Below, in pieces: positions 43,046 to 47,939 of a stretch of 64,000 nt of DNA. Source of the DNA: Amylostereum areolatum. Its lineage: Eukaryota > Basidiomycota > Agaricomycetes > Russulales > Stereaceae. Every line of letters starts with the position of its first letter. Within the stretch, counting starts at the first letter, position 1. The notes under the pieces are model-generated. The model was not told where the DNA came from and did not search any database. It worked only from the letters and a program-made list of their open reading frames with translations. The stretch is from NCBI GenBank assembly GCA_012932865.1, contig SAXG01000050.1:1-64000 (forward strand), given 5' to 3'. Position numbers and translations under genes: made by a program.

Positions 43046-43069
43046 CTGTACCAATTGGAACGGTTCGTC
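43046..43069 (+). repeat. Left terminal inverted repeat, 24 bp
   Basis: Starts CTGTACCAATTGG and is identical, inverted, to 47916-47939. The adjacent outside TA (43044-43045) is the target duplication. The repeats are probable transposase binding or cleavage sites together with the subterminal GTGAC motifs. Confidence 0.93.
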
Positions 43070-43451
43070 ACCCCATTGTGACTGTGACACCCCCGACGAA
43101 ATGTTACCATTGTCTCTGGGCACATGTGACCGTGACTGGTGTCAGATTTCGTCAAAGGTGTAGAGGCGCGGCCAACCGGTTACCTCTGTAGATTGTACAA
43201 TACATGTCGGCTCAAGGCCTTGAGGCCTAAGGCTCAACTATTTAATTGTTACCTTGAGCGGTGATACCAACACTCCTCGGCCATCCTCAACGTGCAAAAG
43301 CAAGAGTCAATCAATGAATAAGTAAATACCTGCGCAACAATTAAAGCCGGAGGTCCGAGTCGTAGTCGCCGATCTGAGACTGTCTAAGATTTCTGTCAGC
43401 TAGCAGTTCTGTCCTTGCTGCACTGCACATCACGAAGATCCCCTATCCACC

Positions 43452-46400
43452 ATGTCGACTTCAACCACCATGTCTTTTATCCACCCCTCACTCGAAATCC
43501 CCCCCGCTATCATCCCGCAAATCCTCCCTAGCCCTGACCTCTCTATCTCTGCCTTCAATCGCTTCCGCATCGCCCAGGTCACCACTGTGCAGTTCAAGAA
43601 AAAAGATGTCCTTCTAGACTTCTTCACCGACAAACCGGCCACCCCCATTGATCTTGACATTGTCCGCCGCTTCTTTGCACCATCCGAACAGGTGGTCAAT
43701 GACCTCGCCGCCGCGTGCCCAGCAATGATACGAGCAGGAAAATTATCTATCACCTGTGCCCATCTTCCAGGAAAATCAGCGTACATTTTCCCAATGTGGA
43801 TCGTCACCTACTGGATGGAGGTTGTCCGCCTTCGCTATATCCAGGCCCGTTGGATGCATGCCGAAGAAAGAATGGTGGAGAGGATGCAGGTGTCGGAGAT
43901 GGAGAAACACGACAAGAGTTGGTGTGATGTTGTCGAGGACGTCCATGGGATTTTACAGTGCCTATCGTGGCATGGTCTGGTTCGTGGATTCAGCAACCCA
44001 GAGACTGTGGACACACTCATGACATACCTTCTCACCTCGGCATGGCTTTCGGATGTCCATGAGAATCAAATGTTGGACCTTCTTCGCCTGGACATTGCGC
44101 GAAGCTCCAGCTACCCTACAATCGACGTTGAGAATCTAGATTTCTTCAAAAAGATGAACCAGGCCTTCACGATGCAGCAAGAGAAAACATACAAAAGCGA
44201 CCGCCAGTTTGCGCGGCTGAATCGGGTTGGGTCTTCCCTCGCCAACCAGGTTCGGGATGCGGTGGTCATGGTGGTCAACATCAACGAGAACCATTGGGTT
44301 TCAGTTGTGGTCAACTTCAAAGAGGCGGAGATTTTATATGGAGACTCACTCGGGGGTGGGATCAACAAAGGTGTCCTTGATGTCATCGACTGGTGGACGT
44401 CTCAGCACTCGGGTATCAAGTTTGCGCACAGCCTGCTGCCAACAACACGTCAGTTGGATAGCTGCAATTGTGGCCTCCTCGCAGTGAACGCACTCGCTCA
44501 TTGGAGCCTACCCGACCAGCACTCTCTGCTCAAGTCCAGAGCCTTGACCGAGGAGCGGATGCATGTGTTCGTGAAGGTTGTAAATCATCATCTAGATCAG
44601 GTGCATTAGAACTTTTTTGCTTTGGACGATGATGCTAACAGAGCCTTACAGAGCTTCGAAACGGCGAGCCATGGTTTCAAGTTCACGTTTTCCTCGCCAG
44701 TGGCGAGAGCGCTCATGGTGGTGCCCAAAGAGGTCGACGTGGACTCGGATTTCGAGATGTTACCACCATCCAATGTCCAATCATGGCGCGACACGACAGA
44801 TGAAGACATGACATCTCTCGCGCCGTCCGAGAGTGGCAGTAGCATCGATGATGAGAACTCCAGCATTCCACCGAGTGCCATAGGCAATAGCGAAACGTCT
44901 GGCAACGAGGATGATCAAGAGGCTGCTAGTGCCGAAGCCGAACTAGAAGGCAACTATTCAGCGCGGTCTCCCCTTGAAAGGCGACACAATCCATACCGTG
45001 ATCTAGACGGTTCAACTGGCCATTCCCGCAGGTCACCAACATCTTCCCTATCCTCTGTGTCGTCCGCACTGTCCACGTCATCTACGTCGTCCACATCCCG
45101 CTTTCCAGCCACAGTGTCCCAGCTCCTAGGTTGTAGGATACAGCAGAGTCACCAGTCAGTTTCCGCCACTGCAGGTCCTAGCTCTGCCGCTGCAGATGTA
45201 CGGTCAATGCAGTCTGAGCCTGCATCAACCAACAACGAGAAAACACCACTGAAAAAAGGTTCGCGCATGTCAGCCATCGGAAAAACACTCAAGCTGCCGG
45301 CAAACGAACCTTCGAAAGGCTTGCTACATTTCTTCACGAAGAACACCCCAGAAGAACACCGCCTACAGGTCCAACGCGAGTCAGAACATCATAGGGAGGC
45401 CTTCGAGAAAGACGAGGCGGCGCGTGACTTGAGAGCTCGAAAAGCGCAGGAGAAGTTGCGTGGTCCAGCAGCCGAACGCCAACGGCGTCATCGTGCAAAA
45501 GTTGTTGCGAAGGAGGTGGAGGACGGGACACGAAGTCCTGGTGGAACTAAACGCAAAAATAGGCCTGAGGTAAGCGCACCTACTTAACATGAAATCTTCA
45601 GTTCAAACTCACCCGGTGCATAGCGCGACATATCTGACCTACAAGACGACACGGGAAAACTCTCCCGACGTCGGTTGGCAGAGGAGTCAAGGCCTGAGAG
45701 ACGCACGAAGGAAAGGATTAGAGTCCAGACAAAAAAGACATGCGGACGCAAACGCACCGTCGAAAAGAAAGATGCCATCTATGTAAACTGGCATGCTCCT
45801 CACTTGTGGCGGGACATTGCGGCGGCGCAGATCAGAGTGGGGTGGAGTGCAACCGCAATCCAAAGAGAGCTGGTGACGCATTACGACCGCGAGGTTTTCA
45901 GCAAGCTTAACTGCACAACCATCCAGTCCTGGATCCTCAAGAAGGATGAAGATGGAAATGAGCTTGCAAACCGTCGTTGGAAGGACTCCGTTGTGCGGAT
46001 GAATGAGCTTGGAAATCATCAAGCTGAGGGAAACAAGGGTGGTCGGCGGGGGATTCTCGTGAGTATAAAAAATGAACGGTGTTTTTAGACAAGCTGACTT
46101 ACCACCATCTCTACCCAGGCTGCACATCCTGACATCGTTGAGACGATTGTCAAGCGCTTGAAGATGTTGTCGTCGTCGTCGGTCCCCATCACCCTTGTCA
46201 CTGTGCGTGGGGTCGTCGTTGCAACCATTCTTCGCATGCGGCCGGAGATTTTTGAGAAGACGTTTGGGGATGGGTCCCACTTCCGCTGCTCTGACACGTT
46301 CCTTCGTGTGTTCCTACACCAAAATCTGCATTGGTCAGAGCGACGCGCGACTCGAGCAGCACAAAAAGTACCTGAAGACTGGGAAACCCAATGTGACCGT

Positions 46401-47678
46401 GCACATCTACGCATGGCGTGGACCATCAAAGAGGAGGACATCCCATCGGAGCTCTATGTGAACACAGATCAGACTCAACTCGTGTTCGCACAGGGCTGCA
46501 ACCTCACCTGGGCTCCAACTGGGGCGAAGCAAGTGAGTGTCGTGGGTCAAGATGAAAAACGCGCCATCACAGTTACCGTTTCGGTTTCGAACCACGGCGA
46601 GTTGCTTCCTTTTCAGGCCATCTACAAGGGGAAGACAGATCAAAGTTGTCCGAGCAATGATGCTCCCCATTACCGTGACGCCGTCGACGCCGGGTTTCTC
46701 TTCGAGCCGTCGGGTACTCTGACCTACTGGGCAAACCAAGAGACCATGCACGATTTGGTCGACAGGATCATCTCCCCGTATTTCTCCAACACGAAGAAGA
46801 GGCTTGGCTTACCTCAAGAGCAGAAGTCAATATGGCAAATTGACGTCTGGTCTGTTCACCGTTCAGTGGAGTTTAGAAGCTGGATGAAGAAGAATCACCC
46901 TACCATCGTCCTCCACTACGTCCCTGGTGGCTGCACTGGCCTCTTCCAGCCCTGCGACGTTGGAATTCAACGCATTTTCAAGCACTCATGCAAGCGGTCG
47001 TACCACGAAGACGTTGTCACCGCTGTTCTTGAGCAGCTTCCCGAGGATGGCGGTGACGACTCGGATGTTGTTCTGAAGAAACCGACGTTGGGTGAGCTTC
47101 GTGATCGTAGTGTGGCCTGGTTGTGGAATGCGTACATGACGGTGAACAATGCAAGCATTGTTACAAAGGTGCGTCGCAGTCCTTCCCGAGACTCGTAACA
47201 TTCTCATCATCGGTTGCAGGCTTTCGAGATGTGCCGAGTTGGCGATTCCGATTCAAACCTTTCATATGCCAGCCTCACCTCTCGCACAACTCGCAATCGC
47301 CTCAACAACCTCAAAGCGACGGATCCAGTGTTCTATGCCGAGTTGACCGACACCCGCTACGAGGAGAAGAAGGTCCAGCCCGCCGAGAACGTCCAGCTGC
47401 CTGAAGATGAGGACAACTACGAAGATTACACGGATCCCTTCGAGGATGACAGCAATCTCTCTTGCAACATGGTCATTGCTGCCGTCGCTGGCTCTTCATC
47501 GGCTCGTGACGTTCAAACGGCAGCGGACGGTTCATTGGCCGCAAACGCATTGGCCGAGTCACTTGACGAGAATGTACACGCGGCGGCCACTCCAGCGGCA
47601 GCTGCACCCGCTGTCCTCGGCCGTGGCATGCGTTCCAAGAAGATTAATCCTCGTTACAAGGGCTTCTGGATGCATTGA
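43452..47678 (+). CDS. Ulp1-type cysteine protease fused to DDD transposase
   Basis: Exons 43452-44600, 44652-45569, 45624-46058, 46119-47168 and 47220-47678. All four introns (51, 54, 60 and 51 bp) are GT-AG and in phase 0, giving 1336 residues. Residues 1-383 end in a C48 (Ulp1/SENP-like) protease with His281 (ENHW), Asp298 (GDS), Gln334 and Cys340 (QLDSCNCG). Residues 384-689 are Ser-rich, then basic. Residues 690-834 look like helix-turn-helix DNA binding (WSATAIQRELVTHY). Residues 835-1184 are a DDE_1-like transposase with Asp951 (NTDQTQL), Asp1076 (QIDVWSVH) and Asp1114 (LFQPCDVG), 37 residues between the last two. The remainder is an acidic tail ending in a basic motif. Alternatively, protease and transposase could be separate transcripts. 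Confidence 0.85.
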
Positions 47679-47939
47679 ATGAATGGTACTTACTTGTCTT
47701 TTCATTCTTTTCGTCGCATTTTCTCATCCTGCTGGCAGATCCGTGGGTTATTTATGTATAGTACACGCACACCATGTACTACGGCCTCATGCTACGCAAA
47801 TATGATGTTCCGCTCACGCTTTTCGACCGATGGGAAAATGGTTTCGTCACTCGTGAAAGTGACCTGTTACGGAGGTCAAATTTCGTCTCGTCAGTGGTCT
47901 CTGTGACCGTGACAAGACGAACCGTTCCAATTGGTACAG
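47679..47939 (+). other. 3' noncoding end and right terminal repeat of the DNA transposon
   Basis: 261 bp after the stop codon, with an AT-rich stretch (TTTATGTATAGTACA near 47750) that could serve polyadenylation, subterminal GTGAC motifs and the right 24-bp inverted repeat at 47916-47939. Confidence 0.75.

Follow-up and report, generated by a model that had tools for sequence, protein, structure and literature searches.

A TA-target transposon of Amylostereum areolatum with a predicted fusion of a Ulp1-type protease and a DDD transposase

Described transposons with Ulp1-type proteases

Ulp1 proteases recur in unrelated transposon groups, where they may be cargo or transposition machinery. 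We analysed 64,000 nucleotides of Amylostereum areolatum DNA (assembly GCA_012932865.1, contig SAXG01000050.1, positions 1 to 64,000 of the forward strand; hereafter the window), which contain a transposon at 43046-47939. Comparison at the sequence level reveals the element itself, its insertion at TA, an open frame predicted to fuse a Ulp1-type protease to a DDD transposase with both active sites kept, and the joint recurrence of both domains among Agaricomycetes. We suggest, with a probability of roughly 0.6, that this is an autonomous TA-target (pogo/DDE_1-like) cut-and-paste transposon, whose one gene would yield a fusion transposase with a protease that aids transposition in cis. With both activities in one predicted protein and apparently kept together across Agaricomycetes, the question of cargo or machinery becomes directly testable.

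A Ulp1 domain within the transposase protein itself is described for Ginger1 (PMC2836005). In the available portion of that paper, a Gypsy-integrase-like transposase has a Ulp1 or OTU domain as its C-terminal part, for which the authors suggested a role in transposition. Since Ginger1 carries such a domain, the fusion as such is not new. Ginger1 differs in its Gypsy-integrase-like core, its C-terminal Ulp1/OTU domain and the animal hosts in its table (PMC2836005), whereas here the core is DDE_1 (a mariner fold in the related protein P0124), the protease is N-terminal and the host is a fungus; membership of Ginger1 was rejected on the core and on the position of the protease. The sequence-only reading that preceded this work knew of no description of a Ulp1 fusion with a TA-target pogo/mariner-like transposase in a mushroom. 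For DDE_1/TA-target elements we found no description of a Ulp1 fusion among the literature matches listed, searched by title and abstract start (Repbase, preprints and most subscription papers lie outside that scope). The accessible parts of PMC12730594 contain no mention of protease, Ulp, pogo or mariner, and those of PMC7325037 do not mention a protease. Judged by its sequence, the novelty is a Ginger1-like idea in the pogo/mariner-like superfamily, with the protease at the opposite end.

Mutator-like elements belong to a different transposase superfamily and have a different target duplication from the window element. They resemble it in that they, too, include transposon-borne Ulp1 proteases (via PMC2836005, as far as available). 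CACTA elements are likewise DNA transposons with C48, but the available text describes a C48 fragment in ORF 2 (open reading frame 2) of plant elements (PMC8978399). CryptonF and CryptonS are mobile elements with a Ulp1-type peptidase; they differ in being tyrosine recombinase elements, with oomycete members, in which the peptidase is additional to the recombinase (PMC3212892, accessible part). SETMAR/Metnase, which emerged as a structure match, likewise joins a host-type catalytic domain to a transposase of mariner fold. SETMAR is a domesticated host gene, whereas here the fusion would be the transposon's own protein.

The sequence-only reading had proposed a TA-target pogo/mariner-like transposon with a single Ulp1-DDD reading frame, and with the frame taken as predicted this stands. 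With the pogo superfamily (IS630-Tc1-mariner; PMC7386202, accessible part) the element shares the DDE_1 catalytic domain that is its Pfam family, a TA duplication and short terminal inverted repeats (TIRs). DDE_1 scores above its cut-off, and an aspartate occupies the third catalytic place of the DDxD array. The families in that survey (Passer, Tigger, pogoR, Lemi, Mover and Fot) have transposases of 300-977 amino acids, and the word 'protease' is absent from its main text, whereas the protein here has 1,336 amino acids and an N-terminal SUMO-type protease. Its DD37D spacing differs from DD35D (Passer, Fot), DD36D (Mover) and 29-36 (Tigger) and falls inside the pogoR and Lemi ranges; none of the DNA-binding domains named in the survey reaches the Pfam cut-off here. 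On these sequence features the element is pogo-like by domain and target, and the assignment stops above the named pogo families.

The element and its predicted gene

The gene and both ends lie inside one TA duplication (43044..43045 and 47940..47941). The TIRs (43046..43069 on the plus strand, 47916..47939 on the minus strand) are perfect 24-bp repeats, as had been read from the sequence: CTGTACCAATTGGAACGGTTCGTC matches at 24/24 bases between both ends, with TA outside each. The flanks at 42984-43045 and 47942-48338 are parts of one repeat resembling a long terminal repeat (LTR). In 8/8 fetched copies of this repeat (L052-L059) the insertion point is uninterrupted and has a single TA, which bears out the target duplication; three copies align without gaps, led by L057 (97.6% over 457 bases), and the other five have gaps elsewhere. 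The window element is thus a transposon that has moved. Copia-like pieces on the minus strand (41407-42929 and 48210-49652), identified by eye from zinc-knuckle and integrase-like motifs, flank the LTR-like repeat that holds it, pointing to nested insertions.

The 13-mer CTGTACCAATTGG occurs 13 times in the 57-Mb genome versus 0 for a reversed control. Two occurrences are the element's own ends and 11 are ends of other small elements. Each of these 11 sites belongs to an element 253-284 bp long that has both its ends and a TA at either side. At one end, similarity to the right end of the large element (88-93%) covers the outer 60-81 bp; at the other, similarity to its left end (84-91%) covers 43-44 bp. 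The L004/L008 and L003/L060 pairs have common flanks, and hence not every one of the 11 is an independent insertion. With its compact ends, one gene and these natural miniature inverted-repeat transposable elements (MITEs), the family is amenable to a reporter assay. A looser search (at most 3 mismatches) found 52 ends versus 1 in the reversed control. A further group with different ends, mostly paired about 275 bp apart, accounts for 27 of the 52; these pairs, whose ends read CTGTACCATTTAAATCGGTTCGCC (e.g. C1:2282798-2283072 and C178:58565-58839), probably form another MITE family.

Five predicted exons on the plus strand, each a multiple of three without internal stops, join into 1,336 amino acids across four predicted GT...AG introns of 51-60 nt; these are the phase-0 joins that the sequence-only reading had proposed. 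Exon 1 (43452..44600, residues 1-383) holds the Ulp1/SENP-type protease, by Pfam and alignments. After intron 1 (44601..44651, 51 nt), exon 2 (44652..45569, residues 384-689) would encode a linker of low conservation and then a charged stretch. Intron 2 (45570..45623, 54 nt) precedes exon 3 (45624..46058, residues 690-834), and intron 3 (46059..46118, 60 nt) precedes exon 4 (46119..47168, residues 835-1184), which contains a helical region and the DDE_1 core according to Pfam, alignments and the model of a relative. Beyond intron 4 (47169..47219, 51 nt), exon 5 (47220..47678, residues 1185-1336 and the stop) would add a C-terminal helical part and an acidic tail. An acidic DDS[DNS]xP-like motif recurs, by eye, near the C-terminus of several relatives (e.g. 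P0127, P0128, P0131 and P0135) and is degenerate in the window (EDDSNLS, 47442-47462, exon 5).

Measured against the usual consensus, intron 1 has a weak donor (GTGCAT), and branch-point-like CTAAC and CTGAC precede the acceptors of introns 1 and 3, respectively. If intron 1 were retained, the exon 1 frame would stop two codons on, at 44609, and yield a free protease of 385 amino acids. Such a protease would work in trans, one possible target being silencing that depends on SUMO; the fusion or transposase would then come from spliced RNA or from a start inside exon 2. The stop and the weak donor favour this arrangement, as do the 34 relatives readable beyond the end of exon 1: 16 have Val (a GTN codon) followed by unrelated residues or a stop, as an unspliced phase-0 donor predicts, while 17 have one of eight other residues and 1 ends. 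However, P0173 and P0129 run on with residues like those that begin the window's exon 2 (SFETASHGFKFTF), both domains share one deposited model in 14 of 16 long relatives scanned, and the short frames may merely come from an intron-blind gene caller. A separate short protease is a serious rival to the single fusion, one that we consider unlikely. The same comparison suggests a phase-0 intron 1 at the same place in relatives, an indirect support for the exon 1-2 join.

Catalytic halves, linker and proposed role

Pfam places Peptidase_C48 on residues 198-353 of exon 1 (E 3.7e-9, 37.2 bits versus a cut-off of 20.7); NCBIfam gives no match for exon 1 or exon 4. The catalytic set is complete, with His281 (44292-44294), Asp298 (44343-44345), Gln334 (44451-44453) and Cys340 (44469-44471) on the plus strand being the residues named earlier. 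The C48 domain, this His-Asp-Gln-Cys set and an Ulp1/SENP fold place the protease in the Ulp1/SENP group. Sequence-profile matches with E < 5e-4 comprise only Ulp1 (the best, 1.6e-7), SENP1, SENP2 and one ULP_PROTEASE entry, and no eukaryotic NEDP1 chain appears among 28 profile-matched sequences up to E 1, although bacterial deubiquitinase/deneddylases do. We therefore regard a deubiquitinase or deneddylase, in place of a SUMO protease, as unlikely.

In exon 4, DDE_1 is found at E 1.5e-6 (28.3 bits versus a cut-off of 22), with the catalytic residues, assigned by sequence, at Asp951 (46467-46469), Asp1076 (46842-46844) and Asp1114 (46956-46958) on the plus strand, in agreement with the sequence-only reading of a DDE_1-like core. 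The DD37D spacing is present in 20/20 aligned proteins. By structure match, the core has a mariner fold in the model of P0124, a relative and not the window protein. Sequence searches with the core produced no convincing solved relative (one found none, another a single unrelated one at E 0.44). Exon 3 holds a basic region and a helical, probably DNA-binding region. Pfam has no match to CENP-B_N, HTH_ABP1_N, HTH_Tnp_Tc5, BrkDBD or HTH_psq in exons 3 and 4, and HTH_Tnp_Tc5 reaches 13.4 bits in the relative L028, below its cut-off of 22.2. In the P0124 model the helical region is spanned by full-length Mos1 matches only at a root-mean-square deviation of 10.3; for this model, two domains fill the list of structure matches, which therefore says little about how the linker and the DNA-binding part fold.

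A search of public proteins with the DDE region found 27 long relatives, of which 10 list a precomputed PF02902 (in Agrocybe, Pholiota, Peniophora, Gymnopilus, Tulasnella, Ceratobasidium and Cerrena). Re-scanning 16 of the 27, picked for length, revealed C48 in 14 and DDE_1 in all 16 within single gene models (E<=1). Thus, both domains recur in one gene, the pattern for which the sequence-only reading had proposed a database search, and related elements do not always encode them separately. All relatives with a species name among the matches listed belong to Agaricomycetes, consistent with the mushroom host supposed earlier. In an alignment of the window protein with 19 relatives of at least 900 amino acids, the protease residues are kept in 18/20 (His), 17/20 (Asp; one Asn, two gaps), 19/20 (Gln) and 19/20 (Cys) rows, and the transposase aspartates in 19/20 (one gap), 19/20 (one Asn) and 20/20. 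Closer relatives keep His, Asp and Cys in 38/38 and Gln in 37/38 (alignment A2, the window and 37 of 39 protease matches), and all three transposase aspartates in 28/28 (alignment A4, the window and 27 relatives from the best 120 of 387 matches). P0150 (protease) and P0121 (transposase) each lie on a contig of 4,874 bases, presumably one and the same. On these alignments the fusion is a family-wide architecture across Agaricomycetes and not unique to the window element; the family would account for some mushroom genes automatically named 'ubiquitin-like protease'.

We compared trees of the two halves for 17 proteins (P0133, P0136 and P0142, whose protease part is missing or cut, were omitted). 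Both recover {P0124,P0126}, {P0127,P0128} and {P0130,P0134,P0135}, and both set P0139, P0143, P0144, P0145 and P0147 apart, the transposase tree less strongly. A supported disagreement between the trees exists only for P0131, P0137 and P0138, of which P0131 has a truncated, long-branched protease. These trees suggest that the halves mostly share their history. A spread from Cantharellales to Agaricales fits a single old fusion with little exchange; alternatively, the whole element may have been transferred horizontally more than once. The protease diverges faster, with median end branches of 0.76 versus 0.31 for the transposase core.

We propose that the fusion runs from an N-terminal SENP/Ulp1-type SUMO protease through a flexible linker, in which a coiled coil is probable, and a helical DNA-binding region to a mariner-fold DDD nuclease. 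Carried by the transposase half, the protease would reach the ends of the transposon and its target sites. There it could remove SUMO from nearby proteins, be it the transposase itself, silencing factors of the host or proteins of repair; this might favour excision, integration or repair. A protease acting at the transposition complex would be an in-cis accessory enzyme of transposition and hence not a passenger.

In the P0124 model the linker is long, disordered and protease-accessible, with a long helix, a probable coiled coil, at the place matching exon 2. Such accessibility, together with the existence of viral polyprotein proteases in the same clan, would suit the suggestion of the sequence-only reading that the protease processes the fusion itself, freeing the transposase. 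However, Ulp1 substrates usually end in Gly-Gly, which was sought in 17 linkers and is present in only 4 of the 14 that could be delimited (landmarks were not found in P0127, P0128 and P0143), none at a common place, and the P0124 model shows no evident ubiquitin-like domain in its linker. Self-cutting is thus very unlikely.

Just before the predicted coiled coil lies a recurring [VIL]xx[FYW][FW] motif, LLHFF in the window (residues 607-611, 45321..45335, plus strand). It is present, by eye, in 12 of 20 alignment rows, with near-misses in P0129 and P0135 and no match in P0139, P0142, P0143, P0144, P0145 and P0147. Among four relatives inspected in the same genome, L028, L035 and L036 have it, and the version in L030 ends in V. 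A pattern count of 11 in 42 was set aside, its landmark having also hit fragments that stop short of the linker. The motif resembles the PCNA-binding box, a resemblance that we treat as a lead; the Gln of the box is found in 1 of the 12 motif rows (P0138, QPSVRSFF, a full box) and in the near-miss P0135, and is missing in the window. The pogo transposase is reported to bind PCNA; in the literature searched, nothing was found linking the two. If the motif bound PCNA, the fusion would be a replisome-tethered SUMO protease-transposase that desumoylates PCNA or repair proteins at the cut and steers repair of the donor gap to sister copying, which we think rather improbable. In that event, cut-and-paste would gain copies, and a mobile element would reprogram host DNA repair via SUMO, in cis.

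Relatives in the same genome

The DDE exon has 16 matches in the genome, itself included, with 36-43% identity in the longer ones. Grouped by place, they form nine other loci (L028, L029, L030, L031, L032, L033, L034/L035, L036 and L037), L034/L035 being one locus split by other repeats. A profile of alignment A2 (38 sequences) detects a protease-like stretch upstream of DDE on the same strand in 8 of the 9, weakly in L032 (E 0.004); the damaged L037 has no match with this profile. Pfam makes no protease call in L028, L030 and L035, where only the profile detects the protease. Similarity is about 99% within the trio L028, L029 and L033 and likewise between L030 and L031, so the nine loci represent fewer independent lineages. 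Exon joins are computed only, and two adjacent genes might have been fused on paper by assembly or annotation. The same order and strand at 8 of 9 loci, both domains inside single models in several genera, and their enclosure by one pair of ends and one TA duplication leave such an artefact with minimal probability.

Where measurable, the protease appears to be under constraint. For L035 versus L036 the ratio of nonsynonymous to synonymous divergence (dN/dS) is 0.11 over 252 codons of the protease, and for the transposase core of the matching pair it is 0.18 over 117 codons. Of 20 pairs computed, 15 were saturated, and three further protease pairs with dS > 2 gave 0.46, 0.44 and 0.14.

At the ends of L028, L029 and L033, CTGTAGTTTTTCGACC forms an inverted pair adjoining TA, and CTGTAGTTTTACGACCAACT does so in L036; L030 and L031 have CTGTACCTTTACGACC at one end only. 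By sequence these ends are related to those of the window element but distinct. A repeat of about 423 bp, probably a solo LTR, breaks the DDE exon of the L033 copy (L033:2739-3161), and similar stretches lie around L029, L030, L034, L035 and L036. Two more loci, L038 (C172:1201500-1211400) and L039 (C140:162500-172400), have stretches resembling Ulp1 (profile E 8.6e-33 and 2.1e-23) next to large open reading frames without a Pfam match, and no DDE_1-type match in the fetched stretch. The 602-amino-acid frame of L038 has a relative at 42%, a frame of 671 amino acids found at five places with near-equal scores; L038 and L039 possibly represent another Ulp1-bearing mobile group.

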